The notes beneath the pieces are model-generated. The model did no database searches, was not told the DNA's origin, and was given only the letters and a program-made list of their open reading frames with translations. The position numbers and the translations under genes were made by a program. From Cyprinodon diabolis (lineage: Eukaryota; Chordata; Actinopteri; Cyprinodontiformes; Cyprinodontidae), in NCBI GenBank assembly GCA_030533445.1, contig CM060071.1, positions 2,418,001 through 2,482,000 on the forward strand: a stretch of 64,000 nt of DNA. Direction: 5' to 3'. Positions 78 to 17,307 of this stretch are shown here, in pieces; position 1 is the first letter of the stretch; each line of letters opens with the position of its first letter.

Positions 78-1016
78 TCAGCTGGGGTCAGAGTTCTTGA
101 GCCGAATGCAATGACCTTTAGTTTCCCACCCTGTCTTTGACATAGCACGGCTCCCAGAACCTTTTTCACAGGCATCTGTATCTAGGACAAATGGCAGTTC
201 AAAGTCAGGGAATGCCAGCACAAGTGGATTTGACAGAATGTCAATGAGCTGTTTCAGCATTTGGTCGTGTTCTCCTGTCCAGTGGATAGGAGTCCTTGAG
301 GGCAGCTGAGCACCTTTTCCTTTCCTCGATTTCACCTGTCTTTCCTCAGGGCTCCCTCTAACTTGTAGAAGGGTATACAGGGGCTTGGCAATTCTGGAGA
401 AATCCTGAATGTAGATGCAGTAATAACTCAAGAAAAGTAGTTTTCGTATTTCACCCACATTTGTTGGTCTCTTTTGACTGAGTGACTTCACTGATTCAAC
501 GTCCCTTGGATCCACTCGGACCCCATTTCCTGAAACCAGCCTGCCCAAATATCTGACTTCTGCCTTGAACAGCTCACATTTTGTTGGATGGAGCTTGACT
601 CCGTGTTGTTGGAGAGCCCTCAGCACTTTACGTAGTAGTCCTACATGCTCAACAAAACTTTTTGAATAACAAAGGATGTCATCCAGATACGGGATACAGC
701 AGTCATCACGCAGGGTGTCCAGCATCTCTTCCATACTGCGCTGGAAGGCAGCAGGTGCATTACTGAGGCCAAATGGTATTTTCACCCACTCATACAAGCC
801 CCAAGGTGAGATGAAGGTGGTCATATGGTGGGACCCCTCAGCCATGTAACCCTGGTGGTAAGCCTTCCCCTGGTCAAGGATAATGAACCAGGTTTGGCCG
901 GCCAGTGAATCCAAGAGGTCTTGAATATGTGGGAGCGGATGGCGGTCAGGCACGGTTTTCTGGTTTAGCAATCTGTAGTCGATGCAGAGTCTTAATGTGC
1001 CATCCCGCTTCCTCAC
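78..1016 (-). pseudogene. Gypsy reverse transcriptase / RNase H fragment
   Basis: This open stretch encodes most of a Gypsy reverse transcriptase palm. Visible motifs are an FIILDQ block around residue 48 (motif A aspartate), [12 protein letters not shown] at residues 81-92, and the YLDD catalytic box at residues 110-113, followed by the thumb region with the KCELF and YLG signatures. Towards the end, a Gypsy-type RNase H start (PFVLDTDAC) appears and the frame then degenerates. The first codon here is not a true start: the same frame continues upstream through a TAG at 1080-1082 into the neighbouring open stretch. It is part of the polyprotein of the old retrotransposon interrupted by the Polinton, and is not expected to be functional. 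Confidence 0.85.
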
Positions 1017-1079
1017 ACAGACTACTGGAGCAGCAATGGGGGACTTTGATTTTACTATCCAACCTTTGGCCAGCAGGTC

Positions 1080-1649
1080 CTAAGTGTACTCTTTCACCTC
1101 TTTGTATAATGGTTTAGGGATGGCTGTGTAGGTGCTTTGGACTGGGGTATCATCTTTCAAGTTAATACTCATAATTAAACTTGGAATATCTCCAATGTCA
1201 TCCACTTCACGAGTGAATGCGCTTGACTCATCAAACAACAATTGCTTTACCTCACTTTGTTGCTCTGGTGTTAGGTGACTAATGTCCACTGGATGGTGCC
1301 AATGTGCTGTGAATGGTTGCTCCTGCTCTTTGCTTGACTTTGGGCTTGAGTCAATAGCACGGATGGACCGAGGTGCTGCTTCACACAAATTTTTGGGATT
1401 GTCTGTTTCAACTATTGTAGCGATGGACTCAATAGAACCCAAAACAGTTGAACTGGGTAGGGCCACACTTTGTTTAGAGTAGTTGGACACTGGTATTTTG
1501 ACATATGGCCTGTCTGTCCTTTCAATCGGTAAGAGTCCTGCTCCAACACTAAGTTGTTCAAGGTGTGCATCATTCAGCTCAGGCTCAAATGACACTTGTG
1601 ACTCTGAAGAGCTAATGCTCACTGGGACTCTACACTTAATATAAGCCAC
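1080..1649 (-). pseudogene. Gypsy protease-RT linker fragment
   Basis: This open stretch is in the same reading frame as the reverse transcriptase downstream and is separated from it only by a TAG stop at 1080-1082. It encodes the region between protease and RT of a Gypsy polyprotein, including the segment that leads into RT (an FTREVDDIGD-like block, then NLKDDTPVQ). No genuine start codon exists because the real protein would be a polyprotein, and another in-frame stop lies near 1660. It is a relic. Confidence 0.7.
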
Positions 1650-2019
1650 CTGACCTGGCTAGACTTTTACCCCTTTAAAGCCCACTTTCACAGTAGCTGT
1701 GTTATCTACTTGACACCTTTGAGTCTGGATAAAGCTTACTAGAGCATTTACAGAAGGCATGTCGATCCCCATAGCCCTACCAATAAGCTCAATGAATTTA
1801 GTTTCCCCCATTATCCTCAATAAACTCATGAATAACATTGAATCCTATGATTGGTCTTTCAATCTTAAGACGGCTTACAAGGAAGGGCACACGGATAGAT
1901 AAATCTGGATTGTCATTGCTTTCCAAGTTAACTACTACCTCTACCCACCCGTCATAAGGTACGGAATCCCCTGTGACTGCTTTAACATTGAGGTCATCAT
2001 CCTTTAGTTCACTTAAAGG

Positions 2020-2118
2020 CCTATCTGCTGCCCAGGTAGGTACCTATTCAGCCAAGCATGGTCTACCAGACTAACCCCTGCTCCAGTGTCTAGTACCACT
2101 GTTACCAGGTAGCCAGCC
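2020..2118 (-). pseudogene. Retroviral-type aspartic protease fragment
   Basis: The minus strand encodes a hydrophobic strand followed by the catalytic DTGA motif at plus positions 2079-2090, as in Gypsy proteases. The frame runs into the Polinton target site at 2119-2124 and resumes directly on the other side at 17308, showing that the Polinton landed inside this coding region. Confidence 0.7.
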
Positions 2119-2124
2119 ATCATG
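2119..2124. repeat. Polinton target site duplication, left copy
   Basis: ATCATG lies immediately outside the left inverted repeat and is repeated exactly at 17302-17307. A 6 bp duplication is the known signature of Polinton/Maverick integration. Confidence 0.93.
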
Positions 2125-2274
2125 AAAAAACTATATGCACCACCTTTCATCAAACTCGAAACCACGCCCACATTCCAAAGTGACAGCCGGAAGTCCCGCC
2201 TTAATTAAACCGGAAGTCCCGCCTTAATTAAACCGGAAGTCCCGCCTTAATTAATATAAAATTAATATAAAATT
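2125..2274 (+). repeat. Left terminal inverted repeat (150 bp perfect core)
   Basis: Bases 2125-2274 match the reverse complement of 17152-17301 without mismatch by eye. Beyond 2274 the match continues imperfectly into an AT-rich array to about 2310. The repeat starts with six A and contains three tandem copies of a 23 bp unit. Polintons replicate by protein priming from such termini, and the position also makes the TIR a likely promoter for each arm. Confidence 0.95.
2187..2255 (+). promoter_or_regulatory. Three 23-bp tandem units with ETS-like sites
   Basis: Three copies with a period of 23 bp begin at 2187, 2210 and 2233. Each carries CCGGAAGT (the consensus core of vertebrate ETS/GABP factors), then CCCGCC (GC-box or E2F-like), then TTAATTAA. 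The same three units are mirrored at the right end at about 17171-17239. Transcription factor binding is inference from motif match. Confidence 0.6.
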
Positions 2275-2325
2275 AATATAAAATTGATATAAAATTAATA
2301 TAAAATTGATATAAAATTGAATAAA
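2251..2325 (+). repeat. AT-rich 11-bp repeats containing TATAAAA
   Basis: About six units of the form TTAATATAAAA or TTGATATAAAA follow each other with an 11 bp period. Each contains a TATAAAA heptamer, and the spacing is close to one DNA helical turn. A shorter mirrored array lies at about 17116-17176. The array could act as a promoter, as an easily melted origin region, or as simple AT-rich sequence. Confidence 0.7.
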
Positions 2326-2546
2326 AAAAATAATAAAAAAATGAATAATTAAAAAATTTTTTAAAAAATGTATAAAAATGCATATAAAAAATTAACTATG
2401 TTATTTTAATAACGGTTATGATGATTAAATGATTATTTTTAATTATTTGTATTGATTTCTTATATAATCACTGTTAGCACTCCGTTTCAATGAGCAGCTG
2501 TGTGAGTGTGAGTGACACAGTCACACGGCAGCCATCCCCCAACTCC

Positions 2547-2554
2547 TATATAAA
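2547..2554 (+). promoter_or_regulatory. TATA box for the rightward arm
   Basis: TATATAAA at 2547-2554 lies about 170 bp upstream of the first start codon of the rightward arm (2720), at the edge of the AT-rich subterminal region. Transcription would be expected to begin near 2577-2585. Confidence 0.5.
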
Positions 2555-2719
2555 TTTAAAAGTCGCGGTATCTGTCTTTGGTAACTCCTGATTCGATCAG
2601 CTGATAAGGTGGAGCTACAGCTTCACAAGGCGATAGATGGAGCTGTAGAAAGTGCATTTAAGAACACTTCTCCCACCCTTTGACTCATCTGCATCCAGGA
2701 CCTTTAGGTAAGCCTGCTA

Positions 2720-4405
2720 ATGCCTTCACATCCTTCTACGCCTGTTGTATCAGCTGAAATGCATAACCCTGGGTCTGAGGTGTGTCAGGACGTCGACACA
2801 TTATCCCATAGTAAGTTAAGTACTAGCTAACTGTATTTATAAGCTACAGCATTTTAGCAATGTTTAATATACTGTGAGATACTGAGTTGACGTTCTTAAA
2901 GATCCTTTACAGTCATGTGTTAGTTAAGATGACTTGTAACCTAATGATAAATGCAGCGTATTGAATTGTCTCTGTTTTAACACCACAGACTTTCATTGAG
3001 TAATGTCATTGAGCATAAAGTTTGTTTTAAGTTGAGGTATAAGTTTTTTTGTTGTTGTCAGAAATAAGAACTTGTTCTCAATGTAATAAACCCTATTGGT
3101 GGGATTATATGATCTATCTCAGGATAATGACAATATATATTTTATTTTATTTCCTAGAACCCTCTGAAATCAATTTGGATGACTTCCTAACGGATTATGG
3201 TAGGATATATTTAAAGCTCTTATTCAATTTTATTTCAATATATTGTAAAATACTATTAAATTGTTTCTAACCATTTTTTCTACTTTTTTTATTTTTTATA
3301 TTCTTAAATCCTTATTAAATCTTGTAGGTTTAATAGATTCTCAATATGGACAGCCCGCTCCTCATTATAACCCAAGAATCTTACCCGGCCTTCTCCCTGG
3401 TATTCTGCCTCGGGTGAACCCCGACCGTAGGGGGGATCAGGAGCAGGACTTGAAGGGAGACCAGGAGCAGGACCAGGAGCAGGACCAGAAGCAGGACGTG
3501 AAGCCCTGCTTCAAACCTGGTCAGAAACGTTCAACAAACAGGCTGACTCTTTCCAAAGTCAAAAAGAGTTTACTTCCTGAATTTCAACTATCCGTTGAAA
3601 AAACATCTACCCCAAAGAAAGAACGACAGGGCATCAACCATCATGGCGCATCTGTAATAATAATTTCACCCGATACTCCGCCACGAGCGCTGACCGTCTC
3701 CCGCTCTGAAACAACAGCGGTAGCACACGCTGAAGCTGGCCCACCAGACCACCCACTTCCTATCACTGAAGCTGGAATCAGCACATCAGAGAGGGAAAAC
3801 CCACTACCCGGTAAGTTAGTCATAAGTATGCCTTTTAACCCTAATATTCTGAAATTAATACCGATTGTATTTCATGATTTAGAGGTTTAACTTCTCTCTC
3901 TCTCTGTTTTTTTTTCTTTCTATCTGTTCATTTACAGTACCCTCGGCCCCAAGGAGTGCAAGACTCCCCATTAAGAAGAAGAAGAGACCGACCTTTAATA
4001 AACTACGATCAATGGTACGAGACCTCCAGCAAAGCATTACCAGGATTGCTTCTAAGGTGGAGACCGCTCGACGCATGATAACAGGTAGATTTTCAAATTT
4101 CATTCTTTTTTTTTTCTATTTATTTATTTTATTTCTATTTATTTATTTTATTTTATTTATTTTTTTCCTTTTTTACAATTAGTTTGTGATATAATAAATG
4201 AATGTGATTTTTTTTTTTTTTTTTTTTTTACTAATTATAAATGGCAAAAACCTAATTGGGATTTTTCTTCCGTATTACAGAAACTTCATCAACGGTAGAA
4301 CGGATACCGACCTGTGGACCGCGTCGATCCGGAGGCTACAGATCAAAATCCAGGGTGCTTCTGAGAACCTGCCACATCCTGATGGATGAACTGTTCAACA
4401 ACTAA
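2720..4405 (+). CDS. Five-exon spliced Polinton gene, unknown function
   Basis: I do not recognise this gene. Five exons can be joined in one frame: 2720-2810, 3158-3199, 3328-3810, 3938-4084 and 4281-4405, giving 295 residues and a TAA stop at 4403-4405. Every intron begins GT (GTAAGT, GTAGGA, GTAAGT, GTAGAT), ends in a T-rich tract plus AG, and falls in phase 1. The three internal exons are multiples of three, so skipping them would keep the frame. The protein starts with a Ser/Pro-rich segment, then a short acidic block (EINLDDFLTDYG), a Gln/Asp/Glu-rich repeat region, a Lys-rich likely nuclear localisation signal (PIKKKKRP, near 3965-3990), an Arg/Leu-rich helix and a C-terminal hydrophobic helix. 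The acidic-plus-basic make-up fits a nuclear regulatory or DNA-binding protein, which is inference. pPolB starts 23 bp downstream. Confidence 0.72.
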
Positions 4406-4428
4406 GTAATTTGTGACTTTTGTAAAAT

Positions 4429-7400
4429 ATGGATAAACAGCAAATGAGAGTTGCTTTGAATGTAATAGTACAGGCTGTTAATGACCTTAAGAATATACCT
4501 GTTCAGCATGAATCCGAATTTGTCAATATATACCAACCACCCCCTGTAAGAGAAGAACAAATAAACGCAGATAGGAATCTGGAGCATTTACTTTCATTAG
4601 AACAAGCGATCCAAGAATTAAACGTTTCTGTCCCTCATCCGGTGTTGCAAGAAAATGAGTCCTTAACCCCGCCTAATCCTACAGAGGGTCAGTTTCAGCA
4701 GCAAGGAGGGCATATCAATCAGGGGGTTATAGAAAACGTTGAAAGTAATCAAAGTGATTCTTCCAGTAATGTTCTGCAAAATCCCACATCCAGCCTACCT
4801 CAACAGCCGAACCTGACTCCTTCTTCCTCCACCGCCCCCATACCTGGCCGAATGGTTCAGCCCGACATGAGTCGGGATCAGCAGGTGGTAGACACCCCTG
4901 AACAGACTCAGGTAACCGATGCACCCCATGTTGAACGTGAGCATTTTAATGTTACAGAGATAAGACTTCCTTTCAATGTGATTGCTGCATGCCCCCGTGA
5001 CATTCCAAATCTCGCAGAATTCTATACACAGGTACATAACATACTCGTCGAGCTTGCTAACTCTGCTAGACAATCAGCAGCTCGTAACGATATTGTGCAG
5101 TTAGAATTAAGCGGGGAGGGATTCTCTCGTCATACGATTGTTCAAGTAAATGATGAACCTGATTCAATTCAGGCGGGGTTTCAGGAATTTTTAGACGAGC
5201 TTGTACAGTCCAACGCAGAGCTCCCACCAAATAGCAACTTAGAACTAATTCTTCAGGTTGTGAGAAACCCTACAGGTGGTGCAAAGCGTAAAGCTGTAAA
5301 AACATTAGACTGCGAGCTGATTCATAAAAAGAAACGTCATTTGTATATCATTGACAATTGTTCTAATCGGCTATGTTTCTCAATCAGTCTAGCACATGTA
5401 TTTAACCCGTCTTTTACAGACGCAGAAGCCACGCATCAAGCTAGAGAGTGGCAGCTTATGGCAGGTTTGACTGAGGAAACCCCCGTGACTTTCAGCGATG
5501 TGCAAAAATTTGAAAAGATAGTGAATAGGAAAATTGTGGTATTCTATAAAAGCGATGGGGAAGCACTGCTTTGTAAATTCGAGACAGACTTTCCAGATCG
5601 CTCAAATCCTCTTTTTCTGTTCTTATTCAAAAATCATTATTATGGGGTAAAAAACCTGCTGGGTTTAACCGGCTCCAAGTACATCTGCAGTTACTGCTTT
5701 ACCGGTTACGAAAACATCAACACACATAACTGCGGGGGTCATTGTTCCGTATGCCACGATCCAGGCTGTACTCTCCAAGAGTCCCGCTCTGTACGCTGCG
5801 CAGATTGTAACCGGATCTGTCGTAATCCATTCTGCTTTGTTAAACACAGAGAGCCCAGAGAGAAACCTAAACTCGGGAAGCTTTTAAGTAATTGCCAAAC
5901 AACAAAATACTGTCCTGCGTATAAAAAACTACATTATGTATCGGCAGGAGGAGAGAGCCGGGGTCACGTCTGTGTATCAAAATGCACCGTCTGTCATGAG
6001 AAAGTGCCTGGTAGCATTGATGTAACGTTAAACGAACATCAGTGCTACATTCAACCTAGTCTTACTGATGGAGAGCTCACTGATAAACTGGTTTTTTACG
6101 ATTTTGAATGTTTCATCGATCAGAGCGGGGTGCACATCCCATTTCTTGTCTGTACCAAAACATGGAAAGGTCATCTCTGGCACGCTTACGGACTGAATTG
6201 CGTCCGTAAATTTCTGCTTCAGTTCAGAAAACCCCGGTATAGGGGTTACACATTTATCGCTCATAACGCCCGGGGTTATGACTCTTACTTGATTCTCAGG
6301 GTGATGGTGGAAATGGGTATTAAACCGCACCTCATCACCCAGGGGAGCAAAATCCTCTGTTTCACAGAACCAGATTACGCTCTGAAATTCATTGACAGCC
6401 TTTCATTTCTTGCTATGAAACTGAGTCAAATGCCGAAAGCTTTAGGCTTCACAGATCACAGTAAAGGTTTTTTTCCCCATTTGTTCTCCTCTGAGAACAA
6501 TTTAAAATATGTTGGCCCGCTCCCTGCCCCCAGCTTCTACGCATTCGAACACATGAACCCTGCAGAGCAGGAACGGTTTAACGTCTGGTACAGCCAGGCG
6601 TGCGAGCGATCCTTTGACTTTCAGAAAGAAGCTCTTTATTATTGTCAAAATGATGTTGAGATTCTTTTCATGGGCTGTGTGAAATTCAGGGAAGAGTTCT
6701 TTAAAGAGACGAACGTGGATCCTTTAAAATGCATCACAATCGCCGCAGCCTGCATGAAGGTTTTCACATCCAATTTCCTTCCTGCAAATACTCTAGCCAT
6801 ACCCTCACCGGTGGACTACAGGCGTCAGTGTAAGACATTTTCAGACGCGTCCATTCAATGGCTAGAATGGTTAGCTCATGATAGGGGAATAGAGATTCAG
6901 CATGCGTTAAACAGAGGGGAAAAGAAAATTGGCCCTTATTATGTGGATGGGTACGCAGAAGTGGACGGGGTCAAAACTGTGTTCGAGTTCAACGGGTGTT
7001 TTTTTCACGGCTGTCCCACCTGCTTTCTACCCGACCGCACCTGTCCTCTCAGGGGTGTTTGCTTTGAAGCAATCCACTCAGCCACCATCGAGAGAGCCAG
7101 CATATTACAATCAGTTTACAGCGTGCGATTAGAGGTTGTCTGGGAGCACGAATGGGTCCAGCTGAAGGCGTCGCGCTTAGGCGTCAAAAGTTTTCTGAAA
7201 GGTTTTAACGCCCCAAAACCACTCTCACCGCGTGAAGCTTTATACGGTGGCAGGACATCAGCTCTCAGACTCAGGTACAGTGCAGGAGAAGAGGAAGCTG
7301 TGCATTATGTTGATTTTACTTCTCTGTACCCGTACGTGAATTCCAACTTCCCCTACCCCCTAGGTCATCCCAAGATCATTTGCCGGGATTTTGATGATCC

Positions 7401-8568
7401 CCGCAACTACTACGGGTTCATTAAAGCTACGGTGTATCCTCCCCGTGGTCTTTTTTTTCCTGTTTTACCTTACAGGACATCTGCGGGTAAACTGGTGTTC
7501 ACTCTCTGCCGTGCATGTGCTGAAATTAACCACCAGGCAGGTTCCTGCACCCACTCTGATGAGGAGAGAGCGCTGAGGGGAGTATGGGTCAGTGTCGAGC
7601 TTTGTAAAGCGTTAGAACACGGTTACCGTGTTGCGAAAATCACTGAGGTTTGGCATTTTGAGAAAAAAAGCAGTTCAATTTTTGAACCGTATATTCACAA
7701 ATTTCTCAAAGGTAAACAGGAAGCTTCAGGCTTCCCTGCTGAAGCAACGGATGAGGAGAGCCGCTTAAAGTATGTAGCAGACTACAAACTTAATCAGGGC
7801 ATCCAGCTGAACGTGGACAACATCGAGGTGAATCCTGCTAAAAGACAGATGGCTAAACTATGTCTGAACAGTTTTTGGGGGAAATTTGCACAAAGAAATG
7901 ACCTGCTTCAAACTACCATCGTGTGCAAGGCTGAGGAGTTTTTTGACTTTTTGTTCTCAGGTAAATACACAGTCAGCTACTTTCACTTTCTAACCGATAA
8001 AATGTGTATGGTTCAGTGGAAATACAACAAGCGCTGCATCTCTCCACCCAACAAGGTAAATAATGTGTTTATCGCAGCGTTCACCACAGCATACGCTCGT
8101 CTGAAACTGTACACCTGTCTCGAACAACTTCAGCATCGAGTTTTGTACATAGATACCGACAGCCTCATTTATGTGGTTAAACCGGGTGAGACTCCCTTGG
8201 AGCTGGGCAATTATCTGGGTGATTTAACGGATGAGCTGGGAGGTGACACGATTCAGGAATTTGCATCAACAGGACCCAAAAGCTACGCGTATCAGACCAG
8301 AAACCGGAAAAAGGTTGTGATGCGCGTTAAAGGCATCACTCAAACTCAGGAATGTAGTGAGAGGGTGAATTTTGATAGTGTGAAAGACCTGGTGGAAGGT
8401 TATTTGCAAGGTTCTACAGGGGTCGTTTTAGAAGCTCCACAACGTACCATCAGCCGAGATAAAAGAAGCTTTCAGCTAAAAAATGCCACATTTCAGAAAA
8501 AGTTCCGTGTGGTGTATGACAAGCGAAGGCTTTTTCCTGACGGAACAACTCTGCCGTTTGGTTACTAA
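4429..8568 (+). CDS. Protein-primed DNA polymerase B (Polinton pPolB)
   Basis: This 1379-residue protein is the replicative polymerase of the element and is uninterrupted. From the N-terminus it has a Gln/Ser/Pro-rich disordered region (about residues 60-170), a domain around 270-410 with a Cys/His-containing core (IDNCSNRLCFSISLAH) that may be OTU-protease-like, and a Cys/His-rich zinc-binding region (about 420-537). The 3'-5' exonuclease motifs are D558/E560 (YDFE), H612-D618 (HNxxxYD) and D742 (YCxxD). An inserted block near 840-865 (FEFNGCFFHGCPTC) resembles Vsr/endonuclease-like inserts of related polymerases. The polymerase motifs are A D962 with SLYP at 965-968, B K1143-G1151 (KLxLNSFWG), C D1242-T-D1244, and K1284-x-Y1286. 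All catalytic residues are present. The ATG at 4429 comes 23 bp after the stop of the spliced gene. A GATATAATAAAT stretch at about 4188-4199 or a spliced leader could drive expression. Confidence 0.95.
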   Translation: MDKQQMRVALNVIVQAVNDLKNIPVQHESEFVNIYQPPPVREEQINADRNLEHLLSLEQAIQELNVSVPHPVLQENESLTPPNPTEGQFQQQGGHINQGVIENVESNQSDSSSNVLQNPTSSLPQQPNLTPSSSTAPIPGRMVQPDMSRDQQVVDTPEQTQVTDAPHVEREHFNVTEIRLPFNVIAACPRDIPNLAEFYTQVHNILVELANSARQSAARNDIVQLELSGEGFSRHTIVQVNDEPDSIQAGFQEFLDELVQSNAELPPNSNLELILQVVRNPTGGAKRKAVKTLDCELIHKKKRHLYIIDNCSNRLCFSISLAHVFNPSFTDAEATHQAREWQLMAGLTEETPVTFSDVQKFEKIVNRKIVVFYKSDGEALLCKFETDFPDRSNPLFLFLFKNHYYGVKNLLGLTGSKYICSYCFTGYENINTHNCGGHCSVCHDPGCTLQESRSVRCADCNRICRNPFCFVKHREPREKPKLGKLLSNCQTTKYCPAYKKLHYVSAGGESRGHVCVSKCTVCHEKVPGSIDVTLNEHQCYIQPSLTDGELTDKLVFYDFECFIDQSGVHIPFLVCTKTWKGHLWHAYGLNCVRKFLLQFRKPRYRGYTFIAHNARGYDSYLILRVMVEMGIKPHLITQGSKILCFTEPDYALKFIDSLSFLAMKLSQMPKALGFTDHSKGFFPHLFSSENNLKYVGPLPAPSFYAFEHMNPAEQERFNVWYSQACERSFDFQKEALYYCQNDVEILFMGCVKFREEFFKETNVDPLKCITIAAACMKVFTSNFLPANTLAIPSPVDYRRQCKTFSDASIQWLEWLAHDRGIEIQHALNRGEKKIGPYYVDGYAEVDGVKTVFEFNGCFFHGCPTCFLPDRTCPLRGVCFEAIHSATIERASILQSVYSVRLEVVWEHEWVQLKASRLGVKSFLKGFNAPKPLSPREALYGGRTSALRLRYSAGEEEAVHYVDFTSLYPYVNSNFPYPLGHPKIICRDFDDPRNYYGFIKATVYPPRGLFFPVLPYRTSAGKLVFTLCRACAEINHQAGSCTHSDEERALRGVWVSVELCKALEHGYRVAKITEVWHFEKKSSSIFEPYIHKFLKGKQEASGFPAEATDEESRLKYVADYKLNQGIQLNVDNIEVNPAKRQMAKLCLNSFWGKFAQRNDLLQTTIVCKAEEFFDFLFSGKYTVSYFHFLTDKMCMVQWKYNKRCISPPNKVNNVFIAAFTTAYARLKLYTCLEQLQHRVLYIDTDSLIYVVKPGETPLELGNYLGDLTDELGGDTIQEFASTGPKSYAYQTRNRKKVVMRVKGITQTQECSERVNFDSVKDLVEGYLQGSTGVVLEAPQRTISRDKRSFQLKNATFQKKFRVVYDKRRLFPDGTTLPFGY

Positions 8569-8583
8569 GTGTTAACTGAAAAA

Positions 8584-9267
8584 ATGTCTCTCTCCTCTGA
8601 AACACAGGAGATTGAATTTGACCCAAGATTCAGAACACCCTTTTCATGTATGATTGTAGGCCCTAGTGGATGTGGGAAATCTTTCTTTGTAAAAAATGTT
8701 TTGCAGAAATGTAACCATGTCATGGATGTTGTACCAGAAAATATTGTATGGATCTATACTTCTTTTCAAAGTCTGTATGCTGAATTGCAAAAAATGAATA
8801 AAAATATTAAATTCATCGAGGGGTTACCTCATTCTTTTGATGATGAAAATCTGTTTCCTCGCGACCAAAATCATTTGGTCATTTTGGACGATGTCATTTT
8901 CCAGGCCTCGGAGCATCCAGAAGTGGTCAAGATTTTTACACAATACAGACATCATAGAAATATGAGCGTGATGATGTTGACTCAGAACGTGTTTCACCAA
9001 GGGAAGTACAGTCGTACCATCAGCTTGAACAGTAATTATATGGTGTTATTTAAGAACCCCAGAGATAAATTGCAGCTGAATATATTAGCCCGCCAAATAT
9101 TTCCATCAGAGAAGACTTTCTTTATGGAGAGTTTTGAAGACGCTGCCAGAGAGCCTCACGGCTATTTAATCGTTGATCTGACTCCGACTTGCCCAGATCG
9201 TTTCAGACTGAGATCGGGTATGCTCCCCGGTCAGTGGCCTGTTGTGTATCTACCTAAGCCTAATTAA
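8584..9267 (+). CDS. FtsK/HerA-type genome packaging ATPase
   Basis: This 227-residue protein has a P-loop (GPSGCGKS, residues 26-33) and a Walker B strand ending in Asp-Asp (LVILDD, residues 98-103), followed by a conserved QNVFHQG segment. This matches the packaging ATPases of Polintons and related double-jelly-roll viruses, which move DNA into preformed capsids. The first in-frame ATG at 8584 is chosen. A GTG at 8569 directly after the pPolB stop is in frame but an unlikely eukaryotic start. Neighbours are pPolB upstream (15 bp) and a small basic protein 10 bp downstream. The gene looks intact. Confidence 0.93.
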   Translation: MSLSSETQEIEFDPRFRTPFSCMIVGPSGCGKSFFVKNVLQKCNHVMDVVPENIVWIYTSFQSLYAELQKMNKNIKFIEGLPHSFDDENLFPRDQNHLVILDDVIFQASEHPEVVKIFTQYRHHRNMSVMMLTQNVFHQGKYSRTISLNSNYMVLFKNPRDKLQLNILARQIFPSEKTFFMESFEDAAREPHGYLIVDLTPTCPDRFRLRSGMLPGQWPVVYLPKPN

Positions 9268-9277
9268 TTAATTCATC

Positions 9278-9619
9278 ATGTCAGCCCGCATAAAAAGGAA
9301 CGCTCCCTTATTCAGAGCTCTGTATCACGCTACTCCACAGAAACGCAAAGACATTCTCGCTCACTGCTCACCCGACTTTCTTAAAGCCTTGTGTGAGATA
9401 GCTCTGAATATCTTAAAGGGTAACGTTAAAATATCTCCTTCTCAACATAAAAAATTGCAAAGGCAGAAAAAGATCATTAGGCTGCTGGCTGATAAAAGAA
9501 CAGGGTTAAAACGCAAGCAGTTGGCTCTGAAAAATCAGACGGGTGGCTTTATTCTCCCCCTGCTCAGCGTTGTAGCGCCTTTAATTGGAGAGCTAGTGGG
9601 TGGTCTTATCAGGAGATGA
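9278..9619 (+). CDS. Small basic protein with hydrophobic C-terminal helix
   Basis: A 113-residue protein whose middle is rich in Lys/Arg (KKLQRQKKIIRLLADKR, about residues 57-74) and whose C-terminus, after a Gly-Gly pair, is a hydrophobic amphipathic helix (FILPLLSVVAPLIGELV) ending in Arg-Arg. Similar small basic proteins with a Gly-Gly-Phe plus hydrophobic tail recur in Polinton/adintovirus elements and have been compared with adenovirus core or membrane-active peptides. That link is from general knowledge and not proven here. The Gly-Gly might be a cleavage site for the adenain-like protease encoded in the other arm. It starts 10 bp after the ATPase stop and ends 4 bp before the next ATG. 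Confidence 0.75.
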   Translation: MSARIKRNAPLFRALYHATPQKRKDILAHCSPDFLKALCEIALNILKGNVKISPSQHKKLQRQKKIIRLLADKRTGLKRKQLALKNQTGGFILPLLSVVAPLIGELVGGLIRR

Positions 9620-9623
9620 GAAA

Positions 9624-10448
9624 ATGTCTCTTAGGACGGCTCAAAAGATGTATCTCGTTTCACCGCATCAATTTAAACGTTTGACCCCGTCAGAGACTTC
9701 TATCAGACAGACGGTTGAAGAGGATTTGGATTCCAAAATGAGAGAAATACTGAATGAACCGGGACTGAGTTCTTATGAAAAAATTAAAAAATACGACGCT
9801 CTGCTGCAGAGGTATCTGGTTCTGATGAAGCAAGGTCAGCAGGAGGAACCCCGAGTCACACTAACACTGCAACATCAGCCCATGCCTGAAAATAATGTAG
9901 GTGAGGCAAACTCTGGTTATACACCGTCTACTGCTGGACTGGATGAAACGGCGAGTGAAGTTCTAAAAGCCCTGCCTAACAGAGATTCCAAAAACGCAAA
10001 ATACATTTTGAAAAAGTTATCCGAAAGCGGTGAGAGCTGGACACCCAAAGGCGAATTTGTCTATCGGGATCGTGTGATGGGAGGGTCTCATATACTCGAT
10101 CTGCTGAAAAATCTTTTGCTCCCGTTTAAGAGGAAGACGCAGACCCCAGATCCTGTTGGGTGGACCCCTTTCCTGACGGCCTTAAAGGAACTAAACATCC
10201 CAGTTTCCTCAGTCAGCAATCCACATGCACGTCAACAATACAGACGTTTGACAGAAACGGCTGTATTGGAGGAGGAGGAGAAGAATGGAGATAAGCCTCT
10301 CGGGAGAAGGAAAAAAAAAAAAAAGATCCTTTCACCAAAATTTCTAGGGTTAGAGTATGAGGATGAACGTAACGGACAGGACTCAAATTTAGATAAACAG
10401 AGAAGCGGAAGAGTTAAAAACCCCGAATGGCTGAAATATTCACCCTGA
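9624..10448 (+). CDS. Conserved Polinton protein, unknown function
   Basis: A 274-residue charged protein. The N-terminal 70 residues are helical (a QTVEEDLDSKMREIL segment then EKIKKYDALLQRYL), the middle is Gln/Pro-rich, and a compact second domain contains ILDLLKNLL and GWTPFLTALKELNIPVSS, followed by an Arg/Lys-rich tail with eight consecutive Lys-coding A-rich bases near 10311-10325. I recognise the overall type as a recurring ORF of vertebrate Polintons but know no assigned function. ATG 9624 is chosen because it sits 4 bp after the preceding stop. An in-frame codon at 9600 would overlap the upstream gene. It is the last gene of the rightward arm, just before the polyadenylation signals. 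Confidence 0.75.
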   Translation: MSLRTAQKMYLVSPHQFKRLTPSETSIRQTVEEDLDSKMREILNEPGLSSYEKIKKYDALLQRYLVLMKQGQQEEPRVTLTLQHQPMPENNVGEANSGYTPSTAGLDETASEVLKALPNRDSKNAKYILKKLSESGESWTPKGEFVYRDRVMGGSHILDLLKNLLLPFKRKTQTPDPVGWTPFLTALKELNIPVSSVSNPHARQQYRRLTETAVLEEEEKNGDKPLGRRKKKKKILSPKFLGLEYEDERNGQDSNLDKQRSGRVKNPEWLKYSP

Positions 10449-10458
10449 AAGTCTATGT

Positions 10459-10503
10459 AATAAAAAACTTGATAAAAGAATTTGGAATAAAGATATCTTT
10501 ATT
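10459..10503. terminator. Convergent polyadenylation signals between the two arms
   Basis: Plus-strand AATAAA occurs at 10459-10464 and again at about 10486-10491, just after the last rightward gene. The minus-strand AATAAA (plus TTTATT, 10498-10503) follows the last leftward gene. Only 93 bp separate the two stop codons, so transcripts of both arms end in the same short window. Confidence 0.7.
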
Positions 10504-10541
10504 GTTTCAAATTATTCATGCGTACAGTGTTTTTTTTTATC

Positions 10542-11084
10542 TTACAGTTTGTAGCAATCTTTAAACATTTGTAAAGAACACGTTCCATGATTAAATGAGC
10601 ACGAGGCCCTCTTTTTGATACATCGCTGATATTTCTTCACAAAATCAAATACCATAACATCATTGTTATAAACATCATTGCCGTAGGTCGCCAATATTTC
10701 ATGCACCGATAGCCCGCACGCTTTATGACACAGATAATAAACACAGTGATGACCGCACACGAGAGACAGAGTATTTTGAAGTTGACGATTATGATACAAT
10801 ATTTTTGAGGATCTGTCTTTCAGAAATGACACGATGCTTGAGGGATAGAAATCAAAATCTGGAGGGAATCCGTAAGAGTCGAAAAAGGTGGCTTGATTAT
10901 TTTCTTCCAAAGTCAGAGCTAGCCAGTGTTCTCCAGGCATATGTGAAGGATGAGTGTTCACGATGAAATAGGCGGGTCCTCTGTACGTGCGTTTGAGTAA
11001 CGGGAGGTGATCCGACGCCCAAACCCCATAAAATAAGTCCCCCAACAGGTGATGCATCAGGCTCTCTAGCTCGTGGTTATTCAT
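10542..11084 (-). CDS. Adenain-like cysteine protease (capsid maturation)
   Basis: A 180-residue protein of the adenovirus protease/Ulp1-like fold. The catalytic set is visible: His53 in GEHWLAL, Asp69 in FFDSYG, Gln103 and Cys110 in a QNTLSLVCGHHC block, with the usual seven-residue Gln-to-Cys distance. In Polintons and adenoviruses this enzyme cleaves capsid and core precursors during virion maturation. The ATG at 11084 is chosen because it lies 4 bp after the stop of the capsid gene; an earlier in-frame Met would overlap that gene by 70 bp. It is the promoter-distal gene of the leftward arm and appears intact. Confidence 0.9.
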   Translation of the reverse strand: MNNHELESLMHHLLGDLFYGVWASDHLPLLKRTYRGPAYFIVNTHPSHMPGEHWLALTLEENNQATFFDSYGFPPDFDFYPSSIVSFLKDRSSKILYHNRQLQNTLSLVCGHHCVYYLCHKACGLSVHEILATYGNDVYNNDVMVFDFVKKYQRCIKKRASCSFNHGTCSLQMFKDCYKL

Positions 11085-11088
11085 GTTT

Positions 11089-12392
11089 TTAATAAAAATC
11101 CACCAAGACCTGCCTTTTTGAATCGATTTCCAATATTGAGTCGTAACACGCGTACACAATCAGAGTGGTTGTATGAGGTAACGGGACCCTGAATCTCATT
11201 TCCAGTCTCAAATTACCATTAGATACTGGTGACAGCGCGTCAGCATCCTCGCCCGGATTGAGATTAAAGACAAACAGAGAGTAACCGTTGTTGAATTCCT
11301 CGCGAGCGATGCTCAGAGGAAGGTCTTTTAAATGACGACCTGTAGCGGTGAACATGTTATAATATTCCCTGACTGAGATACCGTTGTTGAATTGGGGTTG
11401 AAACGCCTTGGCTGGGAGCTGTCTGCCATCTTTACAGAGCGCCATATATTCGACATCCATATGCCTAAAGTTGAAAGGTGACAGATCTCTTCTTCCTGTA
11501 AAAGCTTCATGGTGAACCATTCCTAAAACGAGATATTTCGGTATGGCTCCCAAAAAGAGGTTCTCCTGAGTACATATCCTAGAATTTTCAGGGATAGAAT
11601 ATGTTTTCACATTCACGCGTGAAAGCGGGTAGAGGGCATTTCCTCTCATCAAAGCTGAGGCATGCCCGAGCCGGATGGCCGGGGATACCATAACTTTTTT
11701 CATAAAGAGAGAAGCTCCAAGAATTTTCAATCGAAAGGTTGAATCACGAGCTCCCATGAGAGAGAACGCGTCGCTGGCCCTGATTAATTTAACCCTCATA
11801 TCTACAGAATTCAAGAGCAGTCTTTCACAGAAATATCTGCGTGAAGCGGGCCCATCAGATGCAGCTCTCTGGAATTAGTTGTGAAAGAGGCTCTCTGATT
11901 CAGTCCTCTGTTCGGACCATTATTCACAACAATCGAGTCTATAGCTCCCGCTGTGTCTTTGTAAAAGAGACCTGCGCTGAATTGACTCTTTAAAGTGTCT
12001 TCCGAATAGTTTAGAAGAGTTTCAATCATTGCTCTGTACGGGTGAGTGGCGCTCGACTGTGATATTAATCTGTCTCCCAGAATAACATCGCATTGACTGA
12101 ACATCGTATTCAACGGGTAATTCAACAGTCCGACAGCCGCGTCGTCTGCCAGGTTGCTTCCATCCGCGTTCGTGATCTTCACACGGACGTGCAGTAAAGT
12201 GTCGTTCAAATCCAGGTATTTTTCTCCATCTCCGGGAATAAAAAACTCGATAGGGCCGGTGTCTGTAATCGCTGATACGGGTAATATTTCTGTGTAGACC
12301 TTATCTTCGATAGATAGTTGAGTCATGGGTGCTGAAAATAAATCCAGTTCCGCTAGGGTGCATTCTGATGATTTCTGATGTAAAAGAGCCAT
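11089..12392 (-). pseudogene. Major capsid protein (double jelly roll), frameshifted
   Basis: Two adjacent minus-strand open stretches together cover a Polinton major capsid protein. The first (12392 to 11811, 193 codons) is the N-terminal jelly roll, with the characteristic opening (ECTLAELDLFSAP) and a PIEFFIPG strand. The second (11814 to 11089) is the C-terminal half, with GNLRLEMRFRVPLP and an IEID strand near the end. The frame changes where they meet, around 11811-11840, so a single full-length hexon-like protein cannot be read. Elsewhere the sequence is well preserved, which suggests one recent small indel or an assembly error. The gene lies between the protease and a minor virion protein. 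Confidence 0.88.
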
Positions 12393-12401
12393 GATTTAAT
12401 T

Positions 12402-12407
12402 TTTATT
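12402..12407 (-). terminator. Polyadenylation signal after the minor virion protein gene
   Basis: Minus-strand AATAAA (plus TTTATT) lies 17 bp beyond the stop of the gene at 12424-12870 and just upstream of the capsid start, so leftward genes may be separate transcription units. Confidence 0.4.
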
Positions 12408-12423
12408 GAAAAATAATAATAAT

Positions 12424-12870
12424 TCAGCTAAATATATCTTTGCTCGCTGCAGACTTCCTCCCTCTGGCTTTGCTTCTCCTAACTGATTTCTTCTTTTTAC
12501 GTGACGCGAGTATTTGTGAACGCCAAACACGTTGCCCCGGAGGTCTCTTTCTAGCTCTTCTTGATAGAACCATAACTCCTGACCCCTCTTGGTTATTCAC
12601 ACCCTGATGCGAGCCTGATATTTTCGTCATAGCTTTACCTATGACATCCGAGGCGATGTTTGTGGCAGCCTTTTTCAGATGAGGTTTAACAATTGCAAAG
12701 CCGGATTTAACTAAAGGTGACACAAAACGAAATAACCTGGAAAACAGAGACCCTATCCCCCGACCGTACATAACGGGGGCACCATAAAAACCAGGTAATG
12801 CACCCCCTACTTGATTCTGGTAATAGGAGACAAAACGGTGCGGGTCATCTCTCAGATTTATCTGACTCAT
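12424..12870 (-). CDS. Minor virion/core protein, pVI-like (putative)
   Basis: A 148-residue protein with a conserved-looking N-terminus (YYQNQVGG, residues 15-22), a Gly/Arg-rich turn (YGRGIGSLFSRLFRF) leading to an amphipathic helix, a PLVKSGFAIVKPHLKKAATNI segment, and a strongly Lys/Arg-rich C-terminus. Polintons usually encode such a protein next to the capsid genes, and it has been likened to the membrane-lytic adenovirus protein VI. The assignment here rests on position and composition. ATG 12870 is chosen over an earlier Met at 12975 because the upstream extension is low complexity and crosses an A/T-rich tract. A TATA-like box lies at 12983-12992. Confidence 0.7.
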   Translation of the reverse strand: MSQINLRDDPHRFVSYYQNQVGGALPGFYGAPVMYGRGIGSLFSRLFRFVSPLVKSGFAIVKPHLKKAATNIASDVIGKAMTKISGSHQGVNNQEGSGVMVLSRRARKRPPGQRVWRSQILASRKKKKSVRRSKARGRKSAASKDIFS

Positions 12871-12982
12871 GTTTTCTCCTTTTTTTACTACTTTTTTTTT
12901 TTCTTCCCGACTTTTAGCATGAAGCAACGTGGCAGGTGTGGCCGGTTGCACAGCTATGAATGATTCCAACCGCAATCACACG

Positions 12983-12992
12983 TTTTTATATA
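12983..12992 (-). promoter_or_regulatory. TATA box of the minor virion protein gene
   Basis: On the minus strand this reads TATATAAAAA, between the end of the penton-like gene (13000) and the start at 12870. Confidence 0.5.
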
Positions 12993-12999
12993 TTCTGTT

Positions 13000-13770
13000 T
13001 CATCTGAAGGCTCGTTGTGAGGTCACAGGTCTGAAATGCAGTTTCACGATGCACTTTCCGTATGTAAATTTCACCGGGGTGTTCTGGTCAGTTTTAATTT
13101 CTACTTGTATATTTTCAATATGTTTCTTGGCAACTGGGAGATAGTAGGGATTATGAAAGGTCTGCGTGATAACATCTCCAAACACCCCCTCCACCTGAAC
13201 CGTACGCAAGAGGGGTGCGTAAGCATCCCCCACCATCTGCGGGGCAACAACGTCGCTGTAAAAATAGAGGTGGTAGAAACCGGCCTTAAAATCTATAGGA
13301 TGCGGGGCATGCCCGTGGTCAAATTTAATCCATTTTCCTGGTTCCATGCCGAACATGTAGGCTATTGGAGCGTGAAAACGTAGATGGTACTGAGCTCCGG
13401 CCTGGTAGGTGAGTAGGTTTGCGAGCCGATTAACCCTGAAATAAATGTCTGAATCTATCTTTCTCAGATGGGCTTCAATCTCTGTTATAAGCTGTTTCAA
13501 ATTATTGTAGTATCCGTTTCCAATCTTTACGCGTTGGATATTTTCCTCTTCTGCTTTCCGCCATTCAAAGTAGGCTTCTTCCGCAGGGATGTTATGCCAC
13601 GTGTGTGGATAAGAAACCTCCGTCAAAGCCACTTGCCATTGACCTTGTAAATTAATATGCTCGGCTAAATCCACGCGGAAACTCGATATGTTATTATCCT
13701 TAAACACATTGAGACTAGCGTTGGAGGGTAGCGTCAGATAAAATCCCTCATCCTCAGTTATGCGATCCAT
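13000..13770 (-). CDS. Penton-like minor capsid protein (single jelly roll)
   Basis: A 256-residue protein that matches the Polinton minor capsid protein forming the capsid vertices. Its opening (FYLTLPSNAS), the FRVDLAEHINLQGQWQVAL strand pair and the EVSYPHTWHNI motif (about residues 50-60) are the family hallmarks, and the length is normal. It lies between the integrase and the pVI-like gene on the leftward arm. Its own TATA box (13804-13811) overlaps the end of the integrase gene, so it can be transcribed alone. No break is visible. Confidence 0.9.
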   Translation of the reverse strand: MDRITEDEGFYLTLPSNASLNVFKDNNISSFRVDLAEHINLQGQWQVALTEVSYPHTWHNIPAEEAYFEWRKAEEENIQRVKIGNGYYNNLKQLITEIEAHLRKIDSDIYFRVNRLANLLTYQAGAQYHLRFHAPIAYMFGMEPGKWIKFDHGHAPHPIDFKAGFYHLYFYSDVVAPQMVGDAYAPLLRTVQVEGVFGDVITQTFHNPYYLPVAKKHIENIQVEIKTDQNTPVKFTYGKCIVKLHFRPVTSQRAFR

Positions 13771-13803
13771 GTTGCATTGTCAGCCATCGGTGAGCAGCGC
13801 TCT

Positions 13804-13811
13804 CTTTTATA
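13804..13811 (-). promoter_or_regulatory. TATA box of the penton-like gene
   Basis: TATAAAAG on the minus strand lies 34 bp upstream of the ATG at 13770 and overlaps the integrase stop codon at 13807-13809. Confidence 0.6.
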
Positions 13812-14892
13812 CATCTCGCAGGTCATCGGCTCTCACCCAGCTGTTGAATTTCTCCGGCCAATTTTTCCAACGTACTAAGACCTGTTGGACTCCCCGCACT
13901 TTGCGCTTCTTTAATATCTCACCCACTTGATACATTTTGTTTTTTGACATTTTTACTTTTTGAAGCTCCTCTGCGTAAAAAGAACCTCGAACCTGCTCTC
14001 CGTCTAAATCTTCCAGTTTGAATACCGGAGGAGATCGCTGTACCGTTTCTGTAACTTTAAAGATTTCATCCGTGAAGCTCTGTTCATATTTCTTATCAAA
14101 CACTCCACGCACCTTGGAGATTCTGACGTGGTCACCTTGCTTAAATGCTATCTTGCGTTTTGTGCATCGTTTAGAATTAGTCCCGTAAAGGTTCTGAAAC
14201 ACCTGAAAAGCATTATCGGCGGTTACCTCCATAGGTGTCATTTTAATGCTTGAATGAATGCTATTGTTGTAACTTTGGACTAGGTCTTGAAGCACATCTA
14301 GATATCGGAGAGTGTTGTTTGCGGTGAAATACCTCCACATTCGTGATTTTAAGGTTCGGTTAAACCTCTCAACCACCGAAGCTTTTATTTCACTAGCCGT
14401 GGAGAAATGTTCAATACCGTTTTTGTCCATCAGAGCTTTGAATGATTTGTTAAAAAATTCTTTACCGTCATCAGTCTGAAGTTTCTTCGGAATCTGACTC
14501 TCTTCTAAAACGGAATGAAAAGCTTTTACAACATCGGAAGCAGTTTTCCTTTTTAAAACCCTGACATAGGCTCTTTTGGAAAATACGTCGATGACGGTTA
14601 ATAAATAATTGTAGCCATCATTTTTTTCGGATAAGCTCTGCATATCACAAAGATCTGCTTGGAACTGCTTTAAAGGCCTGGTGACAAACACTCTATTTCT
14701 CGGAAATGTTATTCTTGCCGGTTTATGCAAAGAATAAGCATCCTGTTGTGATAAAAAGTCCTGCACCTTTTCAACCGGTATCCTCTTCCCCATTTCACAT
14801 TCCACAGCTTTGTGCAGCCTATTTACTCCACCAAAACTCCCTGGGTGGGCAGGCATGTAATATACACGTTTCATTAATTTCTTTTCAGCCAT
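13807..14892 (-). CDS. Retroviral-type integrase with C-terminal chromodomain
   Basis: A 361-residue rve-family integrase that inserts the linear element. The catalytic triad is D80 (FQADLCDM), D141 (LQTDDGKEF) and E175 (SVVERFNR). The C-terminal region, after an SH3-like segment (KQGDHVRISK), ends in a chromodomain (YQVGEILKKRK to WVRADDL, last ~45 residues). Chromodomains bind methylated histone tails, which would steer insertion to heterochromatin, in keeping with this copy sitting in an old retrotransposon. ATG 14892 is preferred. An earlier in-frame Met at 15018 lies upstream of the TATA-like box at 14949-14957. The gene is intact. Confidence 0.94.
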   Translation of the reverse strand: MAEKKLMKRVYYMPAHPGSFGGVNRLHKAVECEMGKRIPVEKVQDFLSQQDAYSLHKPARITFPRNRVFVTRPLKQFQADLCDMQSLSEKNDGYNYLLTVIDVFSKRAYVRVLKRKTASDVVKAFHSVLEESQIPKKLQTDDGKEFFNKSFKALMDKNGIEHFSTASEIKASVVERFNRTLKSRMWRYFTANNTLRYLDVLQDLVQSYNNSIHSSIKMTPMEVTADNAFQVFQNLYGTNSKRCTKRKIAFKQGDHVRISKVRGVFDKKYEQSFTDEIFKVTETVQRSPPVFKLEDLDGEQVRGSFYAEELQKVKMSKNKMYQVGEILKKRKVRGVQQVLVRWKNWPEKFNSWVRADDLRDV

Positions 14893-14948
14893 ACCTTCCC
14901 GCACACACGTAGTGATGCTTAATGAAAGAAAGGATGAATACGATAGGA

Positions 14949-14957
14949 TTTTATATA
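14949..14957 (-). promoter_or_regulatory. TATA box of the integrase gene
   Basis: TATATAAAA on the minus strand, 57 bp upstream of the integrase ATG at 14892. Its position supports the shorter integrase start. Confidence 0.55.
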
Positions 14958-15000
14958 TTTTTTTATTTTTTATTAACATAGTTAGAAAAGTAAAACACTG

Positions 15001-15136
15001 ACATGAAAATACATTCATTATTTCATAAGCTAATGTAGAAACTACTCATTTAATAGATAAAAGACACGAAAATACAATCATTATATCATAAGCTAATGTA
15101 GAAACTACTCATTTAATAGATAAAAGACATGAAAAA
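15001..15136. repeat. 63-bp tandem duplication upstream of the integrase
   Basis: Two full copies with a 63 bp period begin at 15001 and 15064, with a short third start at 15127. They differ at a few positions only. The repeat lies between the integrase promoter and the stop codon of the gene at 15174-16055, so it may be regulatory or a neutral slippage product. Confidence 0.8.
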
Positions 15137-15173
15137 GAAAATGACTGAAGAAAAATATGCATGCTCTTATATA

Positions 15174-16055
15174 TCAATACCCCCGCCAGTACTGCGCGGC
15201 GGCTTCAAGCTGATTTTTTATGTCGGGGCCTTGTTCATCCAGCTGATCCTGTAGATCATTGAGGGGGTCGGACACCTGGTTGACCAACGTCAATTCATAC
15301 AGATAAGCTTGTGCTACAGCACTGACCATGCTACTGTCTTGATGGATGTTGCGAGCGGCTAAAAACTGTTGAATGGCATCAATGAACCTTGCATTGTAAA
15401 TTACTTGCATTACATGAGAATAATTGCTTTCAAAGTACCTATCCTCAAGCTCGTATGCACACTGATGCTCTCTCACACTCGGACGGTTATGGGAACATCC
15501 GTAGCATGAGTCACGAATATACTTGTTGATCGCAGCGCTCAGCAGATAATGCACTACAGTTTTCACAGCTTTGATGAAGCCGAACCATGTCCAGCCGTCG
15601 TATTCATCCTGTCCGGTCTCACCCCCTCCTTGGCTCGTTGGAACCTGCAAATCAAGGGGTTGAGAAAAGTCCGGGGAGGGAGGATCTCCTTGGCCGGGGG
15701 GAAGTTGTGAGTCCTCGGATTGGGAAGGCTCCGGGGAGGGTGGAAACTGTGAATCTTCGTCCTGGATCACCGGGTTAGGTGGGAAGGGAAACTTGCCATC
15801 TTTGCAGTCCTTAGCCCGTAATACAAAATGCTCAGGGCTGAGTTTCATACCGGGGGGGCAAGACCAGTCGGATATGCGTTTCATCGCTGCGGCGTACAAA
15901 TCCTCACTCCCGCTGTCGCTTTGGGAAGAGGAATCAAGAGCCGGCTGGGGTGATGGTGAAGGAGGGTGGTACGGTCCCGGGAAGAATTTGTCGCTGTCCG
16001 GGGACCCGTGCTGCGGCGATGTTGAAGGCGATGGTGGAGCAGGAGAGCTTTCCAC
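15174..16055 (-). CDS. Unrecognised Polinton protein with Pro-rich N-terminus and Cys/His motif
   Basis: I do not recognise this 293-residue protein. Residues 1-150 are Ser/Pro/Asp-rich and probably disordered, with imperfect repeats of a DSQxPP type and a PLDLQ pentapeptide (133-137) close to the PxDLS motif bound by the co-repressor CtBP. The C-terminal half looks folded: WTWFGFIKAVKTVVHYLL forms a hydrophobic helix, followed by a possible zinc site C184-x2-C187-x9-H197-x-C199 and several helices. A TATA-like box (TATAAG, plus 16160-16165) lies about 105 bp upstream. Position at the arm's TIR end is where accessory or host-interaction genes usually sit in such elements. That role is inference. 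Confidence 0.7.
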   Translation of the reverse strand: MESSPAPPSPSTSPQHGSPDSDKFFPGPYHPPSPSPQPALDSSSQSDSGSEDLYAAAMKRISDWSCPPGMKLSPEHFVLRAKDCKDGKFPFPPNPVIQDEDSQFPPSPEPSQSEDSQLPPGQGDPPSPDFSQPLDLQVPTSQGGGETGQDEYDGWTWFGFIKAVKTVVHYLLSAAINKYIRDSCYGCSHNRPSVREHQCAYELEDRYFESNYSHVMQVIYNARFIDAIQQFLAARNIHQDSSMVSAVAQAYLYELTLVNQVSDPLNDLQDQLDEQGPDIKNQLEAAAQYWRGY

Positions 16056-16159
16056 AACGACGACGTACCGCAGCCCACGTCCTTCCTCATGGTTTCAGAT
16101 GCTGGAAGTCTGTTCAACGAAGTTGCACGGAGTACTGATCAGCCCGCTTGGTTGCTCGT

Positions 16160-16165
16160 CTTATA
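16160..16165 (-). promoter_or_regulatory. TATA-like box upstream of the 15174-16055 gene
   Basis: The minus strand reads TATAAGAC here. The same octamer occurs upstream of the next gene at about 17010-17017, so the two right-end genes share a box type that differs from the TATAAAA of the structural genes. Confidence 0.4.
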
Positions 16166-16223
16166 CTGGGTAGGGAGTGGTTAATGTTGAAGGGGCGGTA
16201 TCGGCTGTTGTGAGGGGGTGGGT

Positions 16224-16970: not shown

Positions 16971-17011
16971 GTTGGAAAGGATTCAATGACTATGCAGGTT
17001 GGAGGAAGGGT

Positions 17012-17017
17012 CTTATA
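17012..17017 (-). promoter_or_regulatory. TATA-like box of the leftward arm
   Basis: TATAAG (in TATAAGAC) on the minus strand, about 42 bp upstream of the ATG at 16970, in line with a short leader. Confidence 0.45.
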
Positions 17018-17030
17018 CGTCAAGAGAAGC

Positions 17031-17110: not shown

Positions 17111-17151
17111 AAAAACATTTTTTTATATTAATTTTATATTAATTTTATATC

Positions 17152-17301
17152 AATTTTATATTAATTTTATATTAATTAAGGCGGGACTTCCGGTTTAATT
17201 AAGGCGGGACTTCCGGTTTAATTAAGGCGGGACTTCCGGCTGTCACTTTGGAATGTGGGCGTGGTTTCGAGTTTGATGAAAGGTGGTGCATATAGTTTTT
17301 T
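17152..17301 (-). repeat. Right terminal inverted repeat (150 bp perfect core)
   Basis: It is the exact reverse complement of 2125-2274, including three 23 bp ETS-like units, and ends in six T before the target duplication. Confidence 0.95.
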
Positions 17302-17307
17302 ATCATG
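17302..17307. repeat. Polinton target site duplication, right copy
   Basis: ATCATG, identical to 2119-2124. Confidence 0.93.

Follow-up and report, generated by a model that had tools for sequence, protein, structure and literature searches.

A predicted five-exon accessory gene at the left end of a Maverick element in Cyprinodon diabolis

A beta-adintovirus-like Maverick element

The window analyzed here is a 64,000-nt stretch of Cyprinodon diabolis DNA (assembly GCA_030533445.1, contig CM060071.1, positions 2,418,001 to 2,482,000 of the forward strand). It contains a beta-adintovirus-like Maverick (Polinton) element of 15,177 bp at positions 2125-17301. The element has near-identical terminal inverted repeats (TIRs) and a 6-bp target-site duplication, and Pfam identifies PolB, a packaging ATPase, adenain, and an rve integrase with a chromodomain (Table 1). 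These ends and these genes are the hallmarks of Maverick or beta-adintovirus elements. The genes form two inward-pointing modules on opposite strands.

Residues 480-1379 of PolB have close relatives in a set of 5.8 billion proteins. Among the best 120 of 1018 matches, the identity values are 80% (Fundulus heteroclitus protein), 76% (Menidia), 68% (Xiphophorus), and 65% (Larimichthys croaker adintovirus). A search of viral contigs with a PolB alignment produced only three distant loci, which are 27-28% identical in PolB. Transcripts of adintovirus PolB are known from fish gill, according to PMC8878276.

The element is similar to vertebrate Mavericks, as described in PMC8097293, in its size, TIRs, 6-bp target-site duplication, and two inward opposite-strand modules. 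It also shares with them PolB, the ATPase, an adenain-type protease, the rve integrase with chromodomain, and accessory regions at both ends. In most vertebrate Mavericks, such regions flank the core modules and carry diverse open reading frames (ORFs), as the same text reports. Between the genes identified by Pfam are ORFs that we label by position only, following PMC8097293, as candidate pz, MCP, PW, and minor capsid genes. The candidate capsid ORFs have the expected place and strand and no Pfam match at the cut-off (one weak FAT match, E 0.13).

Unlike the Mavericks described in PMC8097293, the element begins with A6 (AAAAAACTATATGC) and has none of the three end motifs given there, which are presented as common types and not as a strict requirement. 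A second difference is that the gene at the MCP position spans two overlapping frames (11089-11874 and 11811-12395, minus strand), which points either to a broken frame in this copy or to a misassembly. Given this split, the copy may be decaying, and it falls outside the "intact" class of that source, in which eight conserved ORFs are unbroken and intronless. The third difference is the subject of this report: the left accessory gene has four introns, and none were observed in the genes of intact vertebrate Mavericks according to PMC8097293. The original prediction regarded a spliced gene inside a Polinton as unusual, and this source bears it out. Spliced adintovirus genes may, however, already have been described in the original adintovirus paper (10.1093/ve/veaa055).

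Table 1. Features of the Maverick element and of its left accessory gene (positions within the window)
Feature	Position	Strand	Remarks
Left target-site duplication ATCATG	2119..2124	.	Partner at 17302-17307
Left terminal inverted repeat	2125..2305	+	181 nt, 2 mismatches relative to right copy
Three tandem units	2187..2254	+	23-nt spacing; each with CCGGAAGT and TCCCGCC
TATA-like box	2547..2555	+	Some 170 nt before ATG 2720; putative promoter
Exon 1	2720..2810	+	91 nt; codons 1-30 plus the first nucleotide of codon 31; uncertain start
Intron 1	2811..3157	+	347 nt; phase 1
Exon 2	3158..3199	+	42 nt; acidic/hydrophobic LDDFLTDY; weakly determined
Intron 2	3200..3327	+	128 nt; phase 1
Exon 3	3328..3810	+	483 nt; QEQD repeat, VIII run
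Intron 3	3811..3937	+	127 nt; phase 1; highest-ranked donor in the region
Exon 4	3938..4084	+	147 nt; KKKKR run, then coiled-coil pattern
Intron 4	4085..4280	+	196 nt; phase 1
Exon 5	4281..4405	+	125 nt; C-terminus, TAA stop; highest-ranked acceptor in the region
PolB gene	4429..8568	+	Pfam DNA_pol_B_2, 5.1e-51; own ATG
Packaging-type ATPase	8584-9267	+	Pfam Pox_A32, 4.7e-7
Adenain-type protease	10542-11159	-	Pfam Peptidase_C5, 2.8e-5
rve integrase with chromodomain	13807-14898	-	Pfam rve, 2.4e-13; Chromo, 5.9e-8
Right terminal inverted repeat	17121..17301	-	181 nt
Right target-site duplication ATCATG	17302..17307	.	

A predicted gene with four phase-1 introns

The gene at 2720-4405 ends 23 nt upstream of the PolB ATG. 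Its five exons join into 888 nt, corresponding to 295 codons and a TAA stop with no internal stop codons. All four introns have GT..AG ends and lie in phase 1. The original prediction had proposed this five-exon structure, and the sequence reproduces its four canonical introns, its single 295-residue frame, and every coordinate to the base. The three internal exons (42, 483, and 147 nt) are multiples of three, also as predicted, so that by length arithmetic in-frame exon skipping is possible, and exon 2 could be a cassette exon. The uniform intron phase had been given too much weight, because a single phase is also found in 25 of the 83 optima with at least three introns that were obtained from overlapping host segments.

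Exons have a GC content of 0.38-0.51, compared with 0.16-0.30 for introns. No intron length is divisible by three, and if any intron is retained, the frame meets a stop after no more than 33 codons. Exon 3 contains no in-frame ATG, although its frame stays open over 3249-3890. Because, in addition, the best unspliced ATG frame in 2321-4425 reaches a score of only 4.4 on the scale described below, translation started at an ATG needs splicing.

Strength of the gene model

Gene models were scored with an optimizer of our own that combines codon log-odds and our own splice-site matrices with a cost for each intron. The codon log-odds contrast seven other ORFs of the element with a presumed non-coding host stretch (38701-47300 of the window). 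The optimizer has no intergenic cost and therefore chained neighboring genes on large pieces of the element; such runs were excluded.

At the default intron cost, the free optimum over 2321-4425 consists of exactly the five exons and scores 37.2, whereas the optimum of the opposite strand scores 17.3. This score was reached by none of 60 and none of 2000 dinucleotide shuffles (maximum of 16.5 in the 2000), nor by any of 2000 shuffles done segment by segment so as to preserve the composition of exons and introns (maximum of 27.5). Host segments, which overlap one another and include transposon ORFs, also stayed below it (0 of 90 and 0 of 356, maxima of 32.3 and 33.0). This comparison favors element DNA, since the codons were tabulated from the element itself, and the host control region includes the stretch used as background. 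The codon score, computed with a training set that, unlike that of the optimizer, contained one mis-framed ORF, is +36.5 in frame, and the two remaining forward frames score -21.0 and -17.1. When the codon score was made flat, 0 of 500 shuffles reached the optimum.

Individual splice sites are uneven in strength, and not all are strong. The donors of introns 1 to 4 rank 8, 7, 1, and 5 among 97 GT sites, and the acceptors rank 3, 8, 2, and 1 among 119 AG sites. With intron costs of 6, 8, 10.3, 12, and 14, the middle three values return the five-exon model. At the lowest, the start moves to 2490 and a microexon of 9 nt is added; at the highest, exon 2 is lost. The flat-codon optimum likewise starts at 2490, with a microexon at 2699-2707 and exon 2 extended upstream to 3062. 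Masking splice sites singly costs 1.8-9.0 score units, with a loss of just 1.8 for an exon 2 site. On the basis of these outcomes, exons 3-5 are well determined, whereas exon 2 and the gene start are in doubt.

Candidate starts are 2720, 2759, and 2490. The ATG at 2720 has a weak context and is preceded by a mini-ORF, MEL*. Doubt about the start is increased by a strong donor outside the model, GTAAGC at 2708..2713 (plus strand; rank 2 of 97), which lies just upstream of this ATG and could be an alternative 5' splice site.

An acidic N-terminus and a coiled-coil pattern

The acidic block, charged repeat, and lysine-rich signal of the original prediction are all present in the protein. Exons 1 and 2 have a net charge of -7, and LDDFLTDY in exon 2 is reminiscent, in our estimation, of acidic activation motifs. 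Exon 3 carries a QEQD-type repeat (3434-3516) and a VIII run (3654-3665) followed by SPD; we take the VIII run to be SUMO-interaction-like. Short motifs of these kinds, as well as ETS and E2F sites, are frequent by chance. Structure prediction from the single sequence gives exon 3 a mean pLDDT of 52.5 and no confident fold. An NLS-like KKKKR run (3973-3987) is located in exon 4, and the protein as a whole is basic (pI 9.35).

Directly after KKKKR, exon 4 has a coiled-coil pattern (3994-4080) that the original prediction did not include. It comprises four perfect heptads in which all nine core positions are hydrophobic (F L V L I I V A I). The pattern was matched by none of 20,000 shuffles of the stretch, which was chosen by eye, and by none of 1,000 shuffles of the whole protein. 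Exon 4 is modeled as one helix over residues 19-47 of 48, with pLDDT values of 91 and 93 for the central blocks. A basic run followed by four heptads could be a bZIP-like layout, and the protein has no Pfam match at the cut-off. The heptad pattern speaks for the reading frame and offers the best clue to function; judging from it and the basic run, the protein probably self-associates and is of nuclear type.

Database searches

No homolog at E<=10 was found in the 5.8-billion-protein set for the whole spliced protein (861 candidates) or for its C-terminus (35 candidates), by a search that depends on shared 5-residue words and on an annotated protein of similar length, such that relatives that are unannotated or near 40% identity could escape it. 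Searches of viral contigs with PolB, exon 3, and exon 4 gave no relative. Neither Pfam, PHROGs, NCBIfam, nor PDB yielded a usable family or structure match to the spliced protein, in searches of the kind that the original prediction had put forward. Ribosomal L17 chains (E 0.065-0.069), a designed SNARE-like chain (E 6.9), and Pfam EFL1 (E 0.35, below the cut-off) were taken as chance matches.

The exons were also considered as a 5' end of the PolB gene, an idea that found no support. The ten PolB relatives listed each have their own starting methionine, and BLAST of the spliced protein against 120 PolB relatives gave only weak matches, of which the best (E 0.011) covers 73 residues at 26% identity with the low-complexity filter off.

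Terminal repeats and transcript signals

Each TIR contains three tandem units, those of the right TIR being the mirrored set at 17172-17239. We take CCGGAAGT to be ETS-like and TCCCGCC to be E2F-like. All six copies of each motif in the window lie within the two TIRs, compared with expectations of 0.88 and 1.95; six copies were reached in 0 of 100 and 1 of 100 shuffles, respectively, although tandem and mirrored copies are not independent events. The repeats may serve replication instead of transcription.

Poly(A)-type signals occur downstream of the gene at 4560 and 4617 (inside PolB), 6319, 7420, 8797, 8806, and 9783. Two more, at 10459 and 10486, lie just past the last gene of the plus-strand module. 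From these positions, either early termination or a transcript shared with PolB is possible. A search of 2100-4450 against Rfam found nothing at gathering score.

A possible spliced early regulator

The gene is very likely a real spliced gene, as judged from its sequence; this confidence pools the four readings, given here and below, that take it as real. Our preferred reading, for which the balance is about even, is that it encodes a nuclear, coiled-coil-forming (oligomeric) early regulator. Transcription would proceed inward from the putative TATA promoter beside the left TIR, and host splicing machinery would process the multi-exon transcript. The product would be a nuclear coiled-coil regulatory protein with an N-terminus resembling an acidic activation domain, and would act early, before or together with PolB, on element or host transcription.

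The original prediction likened the gene to early genes of small DNA tumor viruses. The early-regulator part of this idea is plausible on indirect grounds, in that the NLS-like run, the position next to the TIR, the coiled coil, and the ETS/E2F-like TIR repeats all fit. The likeness to tumor viruses is not carried by any sequence link. Adenovirus E1A has LxCxE, a CxxC zinc module, and PxDLS, whereas a motif scan found none of the three in the predicted protein, in agreement with the earlier failure to find LxCxE, and no usable family or structure match connects them. What the gene has in common with E1A and other early regulators is layout: it is spliced, has a basic nuclear-type signal and an acidic N-terminal part, and is likewise near a terminal repeat with ETS/E2F-like sites. 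It differs in that no sequence similarity was found and in having a coiled-coil pattern instead of the E1A motifs. The gene may work like an early gene, and its likeness in layout falls short of membership in a tumor-virus early family.

With adintovirus Oncoid genes it shares the trait of being an accessory gene in a beta-adintovirus-like genome. Its protein is without L.C.E or P.DLS, the former of which is one of the Oncoid-type motifs. The Oncoid class is defined solely by short linear motifs of interest in PMC11071296, and "oncoid genes" are presented as a key adintovirus feature, and likened to Rb-interacting and antiapoptotic proteins, in PMC10812802.

If the spliced accessory gene is real, surveys based on ORFs can miss such genes, the element has adapted to splicing in the nucleus, and the gene is a concrete candidate for the regulator of its expression. 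More speculatively, some fish Mavericks might have an adenovirus-like early program. In it, ETS/E2F-like repeats of the TIR would turn on a nuclear coiled-coil regulator encoded by several exons and perhaps subject to alternative splicing, and this regulator would couple activation of the integrated virus to the proliferation of host cells.

Alternative readings

The strongest competitor, though a clearly less probable one, holds that the spliced gene is real and that its product is a lineage-specific host-interaction factor (acting, for example, in innate defense or at SUMO/ND10 bodies) or a captured host gene, and no transcription regulator. The VIII run followed by SPD, the low-confidence fold of exon 3, and the lack of relatives of the whole protein or its C-terminus in the protein set are in keeping with this, as are the diverse ORFs of vertebrate Maverick accessory regions in PMC8097293. 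However, no host protein matches the spliced protein, and the lysine run with the coiled coil suits a nuclear oligomer equally well or better.

It is unlikely that there is no gene and that the exons are a chance chain of open stretches among AT-rich tracts. Such a chain would explain why the searches returned no homologs and why the boundaries of exons 1 and 2 shift with parameters, and the best host segment comes near the score of the model (33.0 versus 37.2). Yet the top-scoring host segments coincide in part with a transposase ORF, which we named by eye as Tc1-like, the heptad pattern is in frame, and no control reached the score in either set of 2000 shuffles or in the 356 host segments.

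A structural or DNA-core virion protein would be consistent with the basic C-terminal part and its coiled-coil pattern, but this is improbable for a gene that is divided by introns and that lies on the PolB strand at the TIR, far from the protease and presumed capsid genes of the opposite strand. Some phages have a terminal protein gene beside the polymerase gene, and the product of this basic (pI 9.35) PolB-adjoining gene is presumably similar in length to phage terminal proteins. A DNA-terminal protein for protein-primed replication is nevertheless the least credible reading, and a very remote one, because PMC11071308 places the polinton terminal protein inside pPolB, as its N-terminal domain ahead of a vOTU domain.

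Other ORFs of the element and its flanks

Two further ORFs lie in the right accessory region. One (15174-16094, minus strand) starts without an ATG, and the nearest ATG, at 16090, is in a different frame. Our script joins the two through a 68-nt intron with a score of 53.7, versus 45.5 unspliced; the donor ranks 10 of 57, with 4.2 bits. The arrangement may reflect a broken frame or another accessory gene with an intron. The other ORF (16224-16970, minus strand) encodes 248 amino acids, has no Pfam match, and is preceded by a TATA-like stretch recognized by eye.

The left flank (78-2124, minus strand) resembles, by eye, a Gypsy-type retroelement with a reverse transcriptase ORF, and the Maverick appears to have been inserted into it. 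Elsewhere in the host DNA, regions at about 27000-28400 and 35450-37160 encode peptides that by eye are near-identical, on opposite strands. A lipase-like ORF (30089-30745) lies between the two regions, and this arrangement suggests an inverted retroelement pair around it.
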